From assembly GCA_002221725.1 (NCBI GenBank), contig NJFT01000394.1:1-17926 (forward strand): a stretch of DNA of 17,926 bases. Reading direction: 5' to 3'. Source of the DNA: Scedosporium boydii. Taxonomy: Eukaryota > Ascomycota > Sordariomycetes > Microascales > Microascaceae. Shown here in pieces: positions 4,673 through 17,926 of this stretch; position 1 is the stretch's first letter; the number at the start of each line of letters is the position of its first letter. The position numbers and the translations under genes were made by a program. The notes under the pieces were generated by a model. The model had not been told where the DNA came from and searched no databases. It worked only from the letters and a program-made list of their open reading frames with translations.

Positions 4673-4753
4673 TAGTATTGGCCGGTTGTCGATTTTTAAG
4701 AAACGTTCAACACAGTGAAGATCATCAGCGGAAAGAAGAAACCTTTATAGATT
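4673..4753 (+). pseudogene. duplicated 3' end of the MCT-like transporter gene
   Basis: This 81-bp segment repeats the far right end of the window (17845-17926). The first 50 bases are identical, followed by a few substitutions and a one-base length difference. It covers the last 14 codons of the MCT-like transporter (ending KKRSTQ), the TGA stop and about 35 bp of 3' flank. Upstream of 4673 no transporter sequence can be recognised, so it is a 5'-truncated gene relic rather than a second gene. Orientation is the same as the intact gene. It may come from segmental duplication, recombination or loss of a former tandem copy. Confidence 0.85.
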
Positions 4754-5188
4754 AACATGAAAAAACGAGCGTTAATTCACGATGATATGAGCAACTCTGT
4801 AGGATATCTTTCTTTATCGTGATAATCGGAAAGATGGGAACGTGGTCATAGTATCCCGGACTATTCAATCCACAGTTCTTGACGGAGGAGGTCTTGAGTT
4901 ACCTGGTTCCGACACTACTGGCTTGGCAGAGGGCTGTATATCGTACAATATTGTACTGCATAGACGAAAATTTCTGAGTGGATTTACAGAAGACCAATGA
5001 TGTCTTAAAAACATATAGAACGAACGTTCCTAGTTATAATGTCATATGGACCTTATAGTTCTATATTATTATATTTAAGGTTCGATTCTACTTATAAACT
5101 AAGTATAGATAGGATATAGATAGATAAAAAGCTAAAAGAGCTAAAAGACTATACTTCTATAAGTAAAACTTAAGGTCTTTCTCTTTAT

Positions 5189-5790
5189 CTACTGAGATGG
5201 AGAAAGAGGTGACTGCAGTGGAATTGGTATAGTTCTCTCATGGGCCGCAGGGCAGGGCGGAAGAACTTTCTTCCTTTGCGATGATATTTTCTTCTTCTAG
5301 AAGAAATTCTTCTTCTTCTTCTTCTTCATCAAGTTACTCAAGTTTCTCAAGTTTCAGAAGCTCTTCCTAATCATTAGTTTAATCAATTCAATTGACTCTT
5401 TTTCAGTCAGTTCCCATAGTTCTTGTCTGGCACTGTGTACAGACAGTTCTTCTATTATTTTATGTATGAAAGTGTCCTCTATTTGACCATTTCACCACTT
5501 CTTGGCTTCCCTTTATTTGGAAGCCTTCTTCTCATCTGATGTGGCCCTATTCCGACTGATCTTCATTATTGGTGACGTCCTGCTGCTTGTTCCGGCTTGA
5601 CACATGTCACAGGGTGCTCCTTTGAGCACTGGAATGATTCTTTTCTTCTTTTCTTCTTTTCTGATCTACTTATCAGTTATTTCTGACGTCTTATTTCACT
5701 ATTCCTGCCAGAAGAACTGTAGCACTTCTTGCAGGAACTATTCTTGACCATTTAACTACTTACTTCTTTCTTCTTTTCTTATTTCTTATA
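5189..5790 (-). pseudogene. decayed reading frame inside the AT-rich block
   Basis: One minus-strand frame stays coherent for about 200 codons but is interrupted by roughly eight stops. Its open stretches look like protein: a lysine/glutamate-rich run followed by GAPCDMCQAGTSSR, with a CxxC pair near 5600-5611; then a stretch of about 45 codons including HKIIEELSVHSARQELWEL; then a lysine run encoded by the (TTC)7 tract; then PPCPAAHERTIPIPLQSPL. The CxxC pair could be part of a zinc-binding domain. I do not recognise the family. All stops are TAA, TAG or TGA in positions compatible with C-to-T change. It is most likely the coding part of a repeat killed by mutation. Confidence 0.45.
5307..5327 (+). 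repeat. (TTC)7 microsatellite
   Basis: Seven perfect TTC units, preceded by the perfect 14-bp palindrome TTCTTCTAGAAGAA. On the minus strand they fall in the decayed reading frame as a lysine run. Confidence 0.8.
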
Positions 5791-5825
5791 GTGTAAACGG
5801 GTAGGCTGCACTGCCCCGTTTCACT
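5790..5825. repeat. inverted repeat at edge of the AT-rich tract
   Basis: AAACGGG (5795-5801) pairs with CCCGTTT (5815-5821), and AGTG (5790-5793) with CACT (5822-5825), with one bulged base and a 13-nt loop. It sits where the pyrimidine-rich decayed coding part meets the extreme AT tract, so it may mark a former element or gene border. A second hairpin (CCTGC-AGAAG pairing with CTTCT-GCAGG, with one mismatch) lies about 80 bp to the left. Confidence 0.45.
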
Positions 5826-6230
5826 ACTACTTACTTTTAATTCTAATATAAGAAATAGATAAAACTATAATATTTTATTAAGTCTTTTACAGCCTTATTA
5901 CTTTAATTTTTAAAAAATAGTAAATAATATTAAATATTAAAAAACTTTAAATAAATAAGTTTTATTAATATTTAATAAATAAATTTAAAATCTAGCCTCT
6001 AGCTACTAATAAATTTAATAATCTTTATATAATTATTATATTCTTCTTAAAATATATTATTTTAAATTTAATTATATTATTTATTATAATAAATATAGTC
6101 TTACTAAAAAAAATAAATAAATTAATATTTATATTATTAAAGATATATTATATATATTATACTTATAAGCTTTAGTTAGAAGAAAAACTATAATGGTAGT
6201 AAAGTTAATAACTACTAGCTGTGTATTTCC

Positions 6231-6639: not shown

Positions 6640-7720
6640 ATGCGGATGGCATCTCACGGTCCTTTATCCCTCCCGGAGCTCCGATCCTCCAAGCACACCC
6701 TCACTCCCTCCGAGATGTATAGTAGGAAAGACGAAGAGCGCTGGGAAAATTCCACTACTTCCCTAAGCTTCCCCCAGAGCTCCGCACCACTATATGGGAG
6801 ATGGCTGTACGCCCTGGGAAGATAAAAGGTGTCTATTACTTCTCTCTATTTAAAAGTATTAGCAAGAGCCTGCTCATAGACCTGGCGGTCACTAACTACC
6901 AGTTAGTAAATATGAGAAAAAGTCCTAAAAGTTTCTTCTTGATATCAAGTATAAAGCTGCTGCTCCGAGAGTTCCTACTTATAGAAACAATATCAATATC
7001 TCTGAGCATTTATGGTTTAAAGGTAACCAGTCTCTCTACACATAGGATGTAGGTCTTTTCAATACATGTCGGGAGTCTAGCCAGGTCATCTGTAAGGCTA
7101 TTAAGCCGAGTCTGGATCTTGAGGAAGGTGGATGGGTGATTGAGGCGCGGCATAATGGAGAACTGGTGTACCTCCGAGTCAACAATTGGGACCTGTTTTG
7201 GTTTGAGCTCGAGCAGGAGGATATTGAGGCGTCTATGTCCATTTGATGGCGTGTGCTCCTTTCCCAGCCCACTTTCAGCCGCTTTACGCACATCCCATGT
7301 CATATTGCCTTTGAATTCGATCTAAGCTGGGCCGCTTCTCTCCCGGAAGACGGAGAACCTTTCTACCTACACCAGGAACCTAGCCCTCGTGGCATCGTCA
7401 CTCGTGCCTTTGAAGCATGGTATCGCCACCGGCTTCCTCTCGACACTAGAATCTGGATTATTGACCGAAGTATGCAGTTGAGCAGAGAGCCAGAGATACT
7501 ACGCTACTCTCCTTTTGTTTTCTCTGATTTACAGCATATATACGTTGACGTCAACAGCTGGGATATCTTAGGTGATAATATTAGGAAGAGGAAGAGGGAA
7601 AGAGACACAGCATTTTGCCTATGTAAGAGGCTTGAGAGTTGGAAAGAGACTATTCATGGGGCGCGGGTATCCAGCTGTCTCGGTGTTTTGGCCTGCATGT
7701 CCACAGAAGAGCATAATTGA
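6640..7720 (+). pseudogene. broken 2EXR-domain-like gene
   Basis: A protein of roughly 350 residues can be followed across three frames. The N-terminus begins near 6640-6646 (MASHGPLSLPEL). A frameshift near 6748 leads into FPKLPPELRTTIWEMAVRPG at 6759, the hallmark of fungal 2EXR proteins. A second shift between about 6835 and 6885 leads into the frame that continues to 7720, containing NTCRESSQVIC (the family's CRESR-like motif), FEFDLSWAASLPEDGEPF and LPLDTRIWIIDRS. That last frame has four stops, TAA 6893, TAA 6926, TAG 7043 and TGA 7244, all in register. TAA, TAG and TGA could come from CAA, CAG and CGA by C-to-T change, like the neighbouring AT-rich block. Only the C-terminal part (after 7244) is open for 150 codons. 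A real intron could hide one of the stops but not all. The cellular role of 2EXR proteins is unknown. Confidence 0.75.
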
Positions 7721-8346: not shown

Positions 8347-9564
8347 ATGGAAGACGTGAGTACTGATTCAAAGTCATTTCCGGTGTCCTTTATGCTCACA
8401 TCGCGGAACAATAGCAGACCAGCCAGACCGACATGCTCCCCTCAGTGCCCCCGACCACCCTTCCTCGCCCGAAGGTAGGCCCATCTCGACATGAACATAG
8501 GTTTTTGGTTTTGTCAGTAGACATGCACCTGACTGACGAAGTACTTTTGTCCATAGCCCGGAACCCCCGAAGTATACCAGTCACGTTTCCCTCTTGACTC
8601 CCAGATCTAGTGCCAACAAACGCTTGCCCCTTCCTAATTAGTGGCATGAAGACCAGGCCAGAGTATTACCTTCCTCAGCCATACCGGATTATATTGTGCT
8701 CCAATATCAAGCTCACGAACCATTCATTTAGAAAAGCATGAAAAGGGCCGAGGTGACAGCTTCCGTTTTGTGACTGTACATCGTTTGATTTAGGAGTCAA
8801 CAATGACAAGCATATAATGTTATAGATTAAAATACGGAAGAGGAGTGTAAGTTGTGCCGCCGCCGCATTATTCTCTATAACCGATTCCCTTCTCTTAAAT
8901 ACTAATACTCAATTTAGAACCTTCGAACCAGAATTGAGGTAAATCTATACATTCTGCCTCCTTGTTTTATGTTTCGATGCTGACCTGATTCTTGCGAAGT
9001 GCGCACGACGATCGTTGGATGTAAGTATCCATGTCTCTAAGGCCACATTCCTACTGCTTGGAATTTCGATGCTGACCTGCTTGGCCCGCCCTAAAGCGCC
9101 TTCAGTTCAGTTTGGTCGTAAGTATTTGTCCTGGTTGTCGCTCTATTTATTCAAAACTGTAGTTGAAGGGAGCAAGATTTTTTGACTAACACTCGTTGAA
9201 GAGTACCGAGCAAGAGCTGGACGTAAGGTTGCCTACAATACAGATTCCCTATTAGGCCAAGGCTGACTTTCCGCCGGCCTAACAGGATTTTATCAAAAGA
9301 GTGGTTGTAGGCGCTAGAACCACTTGATACATTTGTATTCACACTATATGCGATACTGACATCGCGGTATATGAAGGACCACAGGAAGTCGGCAAAGGCA
9401 AGTGCTGGGTCCTCTATAAGGGAAACACATAGCGGTGACTGCATAGGTTAGCTGACATTTGGGGTCTTGATAGGACTTCGTGAACAAGGCGTAAGTATTA
9501 CGTTCCTCGGGCACTGCTACCGCTCCGTCTTTCCATGACGCCTATTTCTAGCGTGAATGGCTAA
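8347..9564 (+). CDS. 99-aa coiled-coil protein built from 21-nt heptad microexons
   Basis: Proposed exons: 8347-8355, 8418-8474, 8557-8571, 8642-8662, 8732-8752, 8826-8846, 8918-8938, 9000-9020, 9097-9117, 9202-9222, 9286-9306, 9377-9397, 9474-9490, 9552-9564. Together they make exactly 300 nt, ATG to TAA, with no internal stop. Exons 4-12 are each 21 nt and phase 0, so each encodes seven residues. The 13 introns are 61-84 nt with fungal donors (mostly GTAAGT-like; intron 12 uses GCAAGT), CTGAC/CTAAT-type branch sites in most, and AG acceptors. Residues 4-27 are proline-rich (SVPPTTLPRPK, PGTPE); residues 28-97 form ten heptads. Residues 6 and 2 of successive heptads act as core positions a and d: the 2/6 pairs are H/A, S/A, K/R, L/I, A/L, L/L, T/L, F/V, H/A and F/A, so the middle is the strongest coiled coil. 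There is no signal peptide or membrane segment. Exon 11 (DFIKRVV) and exons 13-14 (DFVNKAV) resemble each other. Intron 1 has a tandem acceptor (ATAGCAG). I do not recognise the family; an adaptor or oligomerisation role is inference. Confidence 0.85.
8972..9079 (+). repeat. 16-bp repeat shared by introns 7 and 8 of the microexon gene
   Basis: TTTCGATGCTGACCTG occurs at 8972-8987 in intron 7 and again at 9064-9079 in intron 8, 92 bp apart, close to one exon-plus-intron unit. It includes the branch site CTGAC. This suggests that exon-intron units were copied in tandem. Confidence 0.75.
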
Positions 9565-11257: not shown

Positions 11258-11905
11258 TCACCAGTTGCAGGCAATCTCCTCGTCAGGGCGCCAAATGAAA
11301 CGGTCCACGATATTTCCGCAGCCTCCCAAGGCGACCCCACCCATTCTGTAGCATTTCTTGACGCCATTGTCCTTCCAGATGCGGTGGGCGCGTCTGTTGG
11401 GAGGATCTACACAGATTGACTGGGGGCGATTGCAAGCAGTCAAGTCGTAGCATCCACCGGCGTCCGGTCCGCCCGAGCCAATCTTCTTGCGATAACACTT
11501 GTCGCAGTCGTTGATGCGCATATCCTGGTCCATCCAGAACAAGGTGGTGGGGGGAGCGCCCCCCACGCCTGGCTGCGGGATCGCGATCCAGGTGAAGACC
11601 GTGTCGAAACCTTTGTTGTAGTCGGGGCATGTGCCTTGATCACAAGCCCCGGACATAATCGTGACGCCGGCCGAGTTCGCGGGGGTCGCAGGAGCCTCCT
11701 CGGCTACTTCTAATCCGTACTGGATCCTCAACTCGTTGATCAGGTCCGTGTTGTTGCTGATGTCGATGGAACCTTCGGGGAAGACGGGTGGGGTGAAGTC
11801 ATCAACGGGTGCAGGGTCTCCGGAGGAAGAAGATGCGGAAGCGAGGGGAGAGGCCTGGACGGAGCCGATTAAGACCAGAAGAAAAGCCTTTTGGATAGAA
11901 ACCAT
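11258..11905 (-). CDS. small secreted protein with ten cysteines
   Basis: An intronless protein of 215 residues if started at the ATG at 11903-11905, chosen because its context is CACCATGG and a classic signal peptide follows at once (QKAFLLVLIGSVQA, then likely cleavage before SPLAS). An ATG 39 nt upstream would add 13 residues before the signal. After an acidic, proline/serine-rich stretch to about residue 80 comes a compact domain with cysteines at 88, 93, 134, 137, 152, 158, 165, 185, 196 and 213: ten residues, enough for five disulphides. Motifs include ACDQGTCPDYN, NDCDKCY, GGCYDLTACN, GGCGN and the terminal ACNW. One NNT glycosylation site is near residue 51. Similar uncharacterised secreted proteins occur in many filamentous fungi, as far as I recall; the function (effector-like, wall or extracellular) is not known. 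Confidence 0.85.
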   Translation of the reverse strand: MVSIQKAFLLVLIGSVQASPLASASSSSGDPAPVDDFTPPVFPEGSIDISNNTDLINELRIQYGLEVAEEAPATPANSAGVTIMSGACDQGTCPDYNKGFDTVFTWIAIPQPGVGGAPPTTLFWMDQDMRINDCDKCYRKKIGSGGPDAGGCYDLTACNRPQSICVDPPNRRAHRIWKDNGVKKCYRMGGVALGGCGNIVDRFIWRPDEEIACNW

Positions 11906-16334: not shown

Positions 16335-17890
16335 ATGTCGATGACGACGGTAATAACGAGCCCGGCGCGGGCTACCACAATAACCTCACACCAGGCTAAG
16401 ATCTTCAATGAAGGATCCGTCACACAGCGCGAGTTCAACAGTAGTACAGAATCCTCACCGAGAGGGTCTATCAAAGACGATCCCATCCTAGAAGCATCGC
16501 GTCTAGCCGATCTCGAAGCACCCGATGGAGGCCGCGGCTGGGTTGTCGTCTTGGGGTGTTCGATACTGACGTACTGGTTTATCGGCACAAGCTACAGTTG
16601 GGGAGTCATCCAGAGCGCACTAGTGGAAGATGGTATAGCATCGGCGGCATCTCTCTCCTTTGTCGGCTCGGTGGCTACCTCCTTAGTCTCAGCCTTAGCT
16701 CTCATCACTGCTAAAATAAGCGGGAAGCTTGGTTCGCGATATACGTGTATGATAGGTATCACGATGCTGGGATTGGGTGAGATCCTCGCGGGATTCACGA
16801 CCCATGCTGTCGGTGGCCTGTTTGCAACTGCGGGGGTAGTCTTTGGAATAGGGAATGGCCTCTTGTTTATGGTAAGCCTTGCTCTAGACCGATACCATCC
16901 CTAGATATGTACAGCAAAGAACGCATGACTGACCTAATAATAAGACCGCATCCGTCGCACCTGCTCAATGGTTTTCGAAGAAGCGTGGCCTAGCCAATGG
17001 CATCGTATTTGCAGCTGGTGGCCTCGGAGGCGCAGTTACGAGCCTTGCCATGGGTTCTCTCGTCGACAACGTCGGTCCCGCATGGACCTTCCGCATTCTC
17101 GGTTTCCTCATCCTCGGCACCGGACTTCCCGCTGCTTGGCTCGTCCAGGAACGCCGGAAACCCCCGAGCCGATCCATAGATTGGGGAATCTTCCGAAATG
17201 TCAACTTCTGTCTTCTCTTCGCCGCCGGCGCCATCGGCTCCTTCCCTCTGCTCGTCCCACCTTTCTTCATACCGCTCTACAGCCGCTCCCTTGGGATGGA
17301 GATGAAGATCGGCGCGTTGCTGGTGGCGGGGTTTAACTTCGCCTCGGCCGTGGGGAGGATTCTGTCGGGAGTGCTGAGCGACAGGTTTGGAGCGGTTAAC
17401 ACGCTCCTGTCGGCACTGATGCTCAATGCGCTGACCATACTGATTTTGTGGCCCTTGTCAACCTCGGCAGCGAGTTTGATTGCTTTCGTTATCATCAATG
17501 GCGCATCGAGCGGCGCGTTCTTTTCGGCGATGCCAACAACAGTGGGAAATGTTTTTGGCTCCAACAGGGTGGCCACGGCAATGGGTTTCGTTGTCACAGG
17601 CTGGGTTGGAGGATTCACAATGGTAAGTGTCGCTTTTGAAAGGATTCCAACGTTGTCTTTAGTGTTCGCCATGCTAATGACTCTATTACCGAAAGGGTGC
17701 TCCGATCGCGGGTTATATGCTCGACGCCTTTGGCGGAAGAGAAGCTGGTTTCCAACCATATCGTCCAGCAATTTTCTGGGCTGGAGCGATGGCTCTCGTT
17801 AGCTCGGTGTTGATCGGGATTATGCGGTTGAGGCTGGGTCCGATTAGTATTGGCCGGTTGTCGATTTTTAAGAAACGTTCAACACAGTGA
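16335..17890 (+). CDS. MFS transporter, monocarboxylate-transporter-like family
   Basis: Exons 16335-16871, 16945-17622 and 17696-17890 give 469 residues. Both introns (73 nt each) are phase 0 with GTAAG donors; intron 2 has a GCTAATGA branch site. A cytoplasmic N-terminus of about 62 residues leads to PDGGRGWVVVLGC at 63-75, the family signature at the first membrane segment; the usual second aromatic residue (PDGGWGW) is arginine here. QWFSKKRGLANGI, a central cytoplasmic loop (WLVQERRKPPSRS), GRILSGVLSDRFG and FGSNRVATAMGF follow as in SLC16-like fungal permeases. About 12 membrane segments are expected. It likely moves a monocarboxylate or related compound across the plasma or vacuolar membrane; the substrate is unknown. 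The start ATG has context ACAACCATGTC, and a TATA box lies about 100 bp upstream. The last codons and 3' flank recur at 4673. Confidence 0.9.
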
Positions 17891-17926
17891 AGATTACCAG
17901 CGGAAAGAAGAAAATGTCAATAGATT
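17845..17926 (+). repeat. intact copy of the gene-end duplication
   Basis: The last codons, stop and 3' flank of the MCT-like gene, matching 4673-4753. The window ends inside the similarity (both copies still share TAGATT), so the true right border is not visible. Confidence 0.85.

Follow-up and report, generated by a model that had tools for sequence, protein, structure and literature searches.

A candidate intron-dense gene of Scedosporium boydii with nine consecutive 21-nt exons, each encoding one predicted coiled-coil heptad

Runs of very short exons that coincide with a protein repeat are best described in the tails of the chicken BG proteins, members of the butyrophilin family. In the excerpts cited here, these tails are encoded by many consecutive 21-nt exons, each specifying one heptad of a predicted coiled coil, with hydrophobic residues at fixed positions per exon and a number of units that varies among genes (PMC5938342, PMC4046983). 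The BG heptad exons come after an Ig-V domain and a membrane span, have a split codon and a core at codons 4 and 7, and a few of them are 18 or 24 nt long, as far as the quoted part of that account goes (PMC5938342). Among fungi, the nank genes (NACHT-ANK) of Tuber melanosporum carry tens of in-frame microexons according to the extracts used (PMC3689799, PMC10197012, PMC4986451). A functional microexon was also reported in Trichoderma virens Xlr2; in the portion cited, its authors state that none had been described earlier in filamentous fungi, and schistosome microexons are mentioned (PMC11121469). In the same extracts, the nank microexons measure one codon (3 nt) and serve to diversify a large receptor through alternative splicing, and Xlr2 has a single switch exon in a transcription factor of a filamentous ascomycete. 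A Pyrenophora genome paper uses the term only for an aligner option, and the word also occurs in a paper on Phanerochaete P450s. Schistosome micro-exon genes contain runs of short symmetric exons, of mixed lengths and with mostly secreted products; to our knowledge they have no heptad unit.

Here we describe a candidate gene on Scedosporium boydii contig NJFT01000394.1, the whole of which (17.9 kb) was analysed and is referred to as the window. Like chicken BG, it has runs of 21-nt one-heptad exons, together with coiled-coil periodicity and fixed core positions per exon that are known here from sequence alone. Unlike BG, its array exons are all in phase 0 with no split codon, the core lies near residues 2 and 6, and there is no Ig-V or transmembrane exon; we infer that the two arrangements arose independently. 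It differs from nank in its 21-nt exons, its product of 99 residues and the lack of a Pfam domain above cut-off, from Xlr2 in being an array of exons and not a single switch exon, and it resembles the schistosome genes in its run of short symmetric exons. The sequence-only reading knew of no described fungal family with this layout. No fungal array of heptad exons was found among the papers listed from open-licence PubMed Central, so that part stood within this scope, but the layout itself is known from chicken BG. If true, the present case would be an independent fungal origin of the exon-equals-heptad design, in organisms that have short introns and in which single genes can be deleted. The question of whether exons mirror protein units would then become testable heptad by heptad, across copies and sister species.

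All 14 exons of the proposed gene were found again at the borders first read from the sequence (Table 1). Joined, they give a CDS of 300 nt that is open from ATG to TAA and encodes 99 residues, with exon lengths of 9, 57, 15, nine times 21, 17 and 13 nt; exons 4 to 12 are the nine 21-nt exons, all in phase 0. The 13 introns are 61–84 nt long and all bounded by GT or GC and AG, with a GC donor occurring once. A branch site of the form CTGAC or CTAAY is present in 9 of the 13, and in the intron preceding exon 4 just 8 nt separate the branch site from the acceptor. The intron upstream of exon 14 contains no branch site in any of the forms tried. The donors of exons 3 and 4 are weak. If exon 13 is extended to 9494, it becomes a 21-nt exon ending in TAA. 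With its 300 coding bases split into 14 pieces, a gene of this kind would probably escape standard predictors.

Table 1. Coordinates of the array gene, its internal repeat and related features (positions in the window unless a locus or contig is named)
Feature	Position	Strand	Description
Exon 1	8347..8355	+	9 nt, MED, donor gtgagt; C4 exon 1 also 9 nt, ATGGAGACA followed by gtgagc
Exon 2	8418..8474	+	57 nt, Pro-rich, ends RPK; start in length-free parse 8415
Exon 3	8557..8571	+	15 nt, PGTPE; C4 exon 3 likewise 15 nt
Exon 4	8642..8662	+	21 nt, WHEDQAR; weak donor gtatta
Exon 5	8732..8752	+	21 nt, KSMKRAE; found in list check and length-free parse
Exon 6	8826..8846	+	21 nt, IKIRKRS; parse-supported; C4 counterpart
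Exon 7	8918..8938	+	21 nt, NLRTRIE; decayed copy on C252, 18/21 nt identical
Exon 8	9000..9020	+	21 nt, CARRSLD; C4 counterpart without AG at that border
Exon 9	9097..9117	+	21 nt, RLQFSLV; C4 counterpart shares TAAAG acceptor
Exon 10	9202..9222	+	21 nt, STEQELD; C4 counterpart shares gtaagg donor
Exon 11	9286..9306	+	21 nt, DFIKRVV; letter similarity to C4 last exon undetectable
Exon 12	9377..9397	+	21 nt, DHRKSAK; GC donor
Exon 13	9474..9490	+	17 nt, DFVNKA/; parse-supported
Exon 14	9552..9564	+	13 nt, VNG and stop; length-free parse uses acceptor 9574
Repeat pair	8972-8990 / 9064-9082	+	introns 7 and 8, 19 nt at 95%, spacing 92
Broken 2EXR relative	6735..7711	+	two frames, two stops; intact 457-residue relative precedes C4 array
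C252 relic	L011 4852-4964 = C252:44351-44463		exon 7 region; acceptor TAG changed to TAT

We consider this probably a genuine fungal gene, rich in introns, whose product would be a small intracellular protein predicted to oligomerise as a coiled coil, with one heptad per microexon. The exon chain, its statistical excess, a collinear diverged copy and a register test with preset positions were observed directly. In the product, a short Pro-rich head would lead into a coiled coil of about ten heptads. Nine of these would each come from one of the consecutive 21-nt exons, in a common register and with exon residues 2 and 6 at or near the core. The introns are short enough that they could be removed by intron definition, and the tiny exons would therefore be no obstacle to splicing. 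The protein would act by oligomerising through its coil. Because the units are all in phase 0 and are whole heptads, gain, loss or skipping of an exon would alter the length of the coil while keeping frame and register.

The length of the chain was compared with that of chains arising elsewhere. Stop-free 21-nt exons joined by introns of 50–100 nt were counted at three levels of splice-site strictness. In the window, the longest chain had 9, 8 and 8 exons at the three levels on the plus strand and 3, 2 and 1 on the minus strand. Background loci from the same genome (20 of 10 kb and 8 of 3 kb, giving 28 loci, 224 kb and 56 strands) reached a maximum of 4, 3 and 2, or 5, 4 and 2 when all six tested exon lengths were considered, while 500 dinucleotide shuffles of the 1.3-kb region per level reached 3, 2 and 2. 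A chance origin of the 21-nt chain was rejected on the contrast of nine exons with at most 4 in the background and at most 3 in the shuffles, which bears out the earlier statement that chance cannot easily give nine equal exons.

At the loosest setting (introns of 45–110 nt, without a site-quality test), splice-like sites do run together. Single 21-nt candidates are common there (108 on the plus strand of the window), chains of 21-nt exons extend to 6 on the minus strand, and elsewhere in the window 30-nt exons form a chain of nine. Once donor and branch quality were required, the 30-nt chain shrank to a single exon (three on the minus strand) and the 21-nt chain still had 8 exons. The single candidates and the 30-nt chain are what could be said for a chance run of such sites; against it stand the background and shuffle controls, the first-AG parse described next and the collinear second copy, and we regard its probability as negligible.

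The exons were also parsed with no term for exon length, using hand-set generic site models untrained on this genome. When the acceptor was taken as the first AG after the branch site, exons 5 to 12 were recovered exactly, giving eight consecutive 21-nt exons among 13, and this result was stable for minimum branch distances of 6, 8 or 10 nt and for all penalties tried. The same parse moved the start of exon 2 and the last acceptor (Table 1) and shortened exon 4 to 15 nt, dropping it at penalty 8; it is at exons 4 and 14 that the window model is therefore uncertain. Without the first-AG rule, 21 nt was obtained for 4 of 13 exons (4 of 12 at the highest penalty), since AAG, the acceptor at four of the sites, was outscored by later YAGs. 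Support from the parse depends on the first-AG rule and on the hand-set site models. Exon 4 is the weakest exon in the window, and the same 21-nt border recurs in the C4 copy, where 13 of 21 nt are identical in the exon encoding WHQEMAA and the donor is strong (gtaagt).

The strongest support for the putative array gene is this diverged copy. With the 2EXR piece of the window as a protein query, three near relatives were found in the genome, at C4, C46 and C408. When their flanks were scanned, only that of C4 contained four 21-nt exons in a chain under the strictest criteria, against a background maximum of 2. The 6.5-kb C4 locus (L040) contains an intact 457-residue 2EXR gene (PF20150), then the array, then HSP90 on the opposite strand; among the best 120 of 7,999 matches scored, this HSP90 was 100% identical over 615 residues to a Scedosporium apiospermum protein and 96% identical to that of Lomentospora prolificans. 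The C4 model has exons of 9 nt (MET), 42 nt (ending RPK, as does its counterpart in the window) and 15 nt, followed by six of 21 nt and a long open last exon. The six, each bounded by AG and GT, encode WHQEMAA, EARRKAQ, AKLLDAG, KVEKRVR, SLQEDRN and SLRSQAK. At the place of exon 8 there is a matching stretch, GMRAKLK, which has no AG at its start and would therefore be either skipped or altered.

The global alignment of the window with C4 scored 456.5, whereas none of 100 block shuffles scored above 208. In BLASTN, the top three pieces (E 5e-9, 1e-6 and 6e-4) were collinear from exon 2 to intron 10. Five of the ten same-number intron pairs (introns 2, 3, 4, 5 and 10) scored 2 to 13, where unlike pairs reached at most −1; the remaining five were not above unlike pairs. 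Three small blocks between the end of 2EXR and the start of the array were also common to both loci (E 0.001–0.011), and an ancestral block of 2EXR gene and array may have been copied within the genome. Downstream of intron 10 no similarity between window and C4 was found, with exon 11 at or below control and an empty BLAST result; the last exon of C4 can therefore be equated with exons 11–14 by position only. The first-AG length-free parse of C4 gave 21 nt for 4 of 10 exons (5 of 9 at penalty 8) and picked different donors for exons 5 and 7; conservation of exon length between the copies therefore rests on homology and available sites. By eye, two more donor-like sites (gtaagt) were seen 5′ of the C4 ATG, at L040 1805–2006, a hint of short spliced exons in its 5′ leader.

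The periodicity of the product was examined in both copies. A shared hydrophobic pattern at positions 2 and 6 of the heptads had been proposed. In the window, position 6 is hydrophobic in 8 of the 9 heptads and position 2 in only 4 of the 9. Of 20,000 permutations, 28 attained the best 3-4 placement contrast of the window heptads (best of seven placements) and 139 attained the 3.5-residue moment. When positions 2 and 6 were chosen in advance for the six C4 microexons, 26 of 20,000 permutations attained the contrast, and this placement was the best of the seven; the contrast weakened to 242 of 20,000 for nine C4 heptads, three of them from the unsplit exon. In the six clean window/C4 exon pairs, second codon positions were identical at 21/42 and the other two positions at 13/42 and 11/42 (21/42 versus 24/84, one-sided p 0.016). 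The chain excess, the length-free parse, these register tests and the C4 copy all support the proposal that the exon unit is the heptad unit.

Except at exon 4, the exon letters of the window and C4 are not more alike than those of unlike pairs. Over the six exons, identity was 7.5/21 against a control of 6.3, while the introns gave 11.3 versus 6.0 on the acceptor side and 8.2 versus 5.4 on the donor side. These values are suggestive of exons that evolve faster than their own introns between the copies, for six exons. In the window/C252 pair, instead, the exon (18/21) is conserved like its flanks (41/53 and 37/43).

Two further interpretations draw on this pattern. In one, genuine exons make up a transcript that is noncoding or whose frame is unimportant, and 21 nt reflects a spacing constraint of splicing; exon letters at chance level bar exon 4, with intron ends alike, are as it would predict. 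We think it very unlikely, given that the hydrophobic register is kept in both copies, that second codon positions are the best conserved, and that each of the exon lengths 9, 15 and 21 is divisible by three. The other holds that the array is a counterpart of the BG tail under diversifying pressure, the block being duplicated, the heptad exons outpacing the introns with register and borders fixed, and exon number or splicing tuning coil pairing as in recognition or partner choice. The greater divergence of exons than of introns between the copies hints at diversifying selection in these six exons; as a whole we rate this proposal as rather improbable.

A coding signal is consistent with the probable protein-coding gene. 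The synonymous codon score of the spliced CDS was 14.2 bits over 95 codons, like that of the 39 training ORFs, and the introns scored negative; the nine microexons alone gave little signal, 3.5 bits over 61 codons, close to the 2.9 of one antisense frame. Exons 1–3 encode 27 Pro-rich residues, and inspection by eye showed neither a signal peptide nor a membrane span in the array protein. Neither array protein matched Pfam above cut-off (best HEPN_Apea, E 0.024, for the window; CCDC106, E 0.007, for C4). In a PDB sequence search the window protein gave five weak matches, the best (E 0.018) in a region of CFAP43 that we take to be coiled coil. A single-sequence search of 5.8 billion proteins found no candidate sharing enough words with the window protein, and a paired search with the window and C4 proteins, of a kind that misses distant relatives, returned 224 candidates and none at E ≤10. 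The window contained no tRNA (scan with bacterial code) and no Rfam match at the gathering score.

A third, decayed fragment of the array was found on C252, where 82 nt around exon 7 are 82% identical by BLAST; the stretch aligned beyond this match (Table 1) is not relied on. No significant 2EXR match was present in the 9.9 kb around it. Searching the whole genome (42.9 Mb, 442 contigs) with the array DNA, the relic, both flanks and the C4 array listed no array copy other than those in the window, on C4 and on C252. With the last exon of C4 as a protein query, one insignificant match was obtained (E 0.32). Since the search with C4 DNA omitted even the window array, copies this diverged escape such a search.

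The relic bears on a reading in which the window array is a former gene, now decaying, that makes no protein in this strain and has splice signals and frame still mostly intact. The lost acceptor on C252, the broken 2EXR relative next to the window array, with its two frames and two stops, and the weak donors of exons 3 and 4 would all agree with decay. Countering these, 99 codons are stop-free, 13 of 13 introns run from GT or GC to AG and the heptad register of the window is intact, and we judge a decaying gene unlikely.

How the heptad exons arose was addressed through similarities within the array. The best self-match, between introns 7 and 8 (Table 1), was equalled in one of 300 shuffles. 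Exons 8 and 9 are alike at their ends, donors included, at a spacing of 97, which is the exon spacing. A further match joins window intron 7 to the C4 intron that precedes exon 9 (E 0.016), and exons 4 and 13 with their donors have 30 nt in common at 77% (BLAST E 0.015). The mean similarity among the nine exons was reached by 175 of 5,000 codon shuffles. The suggestion that the coil grew one heptad-exon at a time finds partial backing in the intron 7/8 and exon 4/13 repeats, while the weak similarity among the nine exons speaks against it. We take the intron 7/8 repeat as a sign of a duplicated unit; together the data suggest one or two old duplicated units and do not demonstrate the origin of all heptad exons by this route.

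It is also conceivable, though we lean away from it, that introns were inserted at the heptad borders of an existing coil, or were lost in C4; such an origin would be compatible with the main reading of a real heptad-exon gene. Most units are little alike, and C4 has one open exon after exon 10, matched to exons 11–13 by position only, as insertion or loss would allow; set against this are the likeness of introns 7 and 8 and of the exon 8 and 9 ends at unit spacing, and that of the ends of exons 4 and 13. The C4 heptads after exon 10, if they do correspond, are unsplit, which would fit 3′ intron loss via a reverse-transcribed message. Loss of adjacent 3′ introns in this way is an established type of event. 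Introner-type proliferation produces near-identical introns at many genome sites; here, by contrast, the array DNA matched only itself and one relic, and the C4 array only itself (both lower bounds). A short branch-to-acceptor pattern showed no excess across the genome, with 60 matches versus 87 in the reversed control.

In the window, an amidohydrolase and an MFS transporter lie to the left of the array, with the broken 2EXR relative directly upstream, and a 215-codon ORF followed by a second MFS gene lies to the right. PF20150 has at least 31 matches in the genome, of which four (window, C4, C46 and C408) were checked for an adjacent array. The relatives at C46 and C408 have none within 1.5 kb on either side, and with two of the four checked loci lacking an array, the pairing of a 2EXR gene with the array in two copies is a lead only. 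By eye, the 215-codon ORF (11258–11905, minus strand) begins with a hydrophobic stretch and contains several cysteines; it has no significant Pfam match, and its product is possibly secreted. Positions 5000–6200, upstream of the 2EXR remnant, appear strongly AT-rich by eye. An exact 45-nt direct repeat occurs at 4678–4722 and 17850–17894, 13 kb apart, one copy lying immediately beyond the final ORF of the MFS gene on the right and the other beyond the MFS gene on the left.
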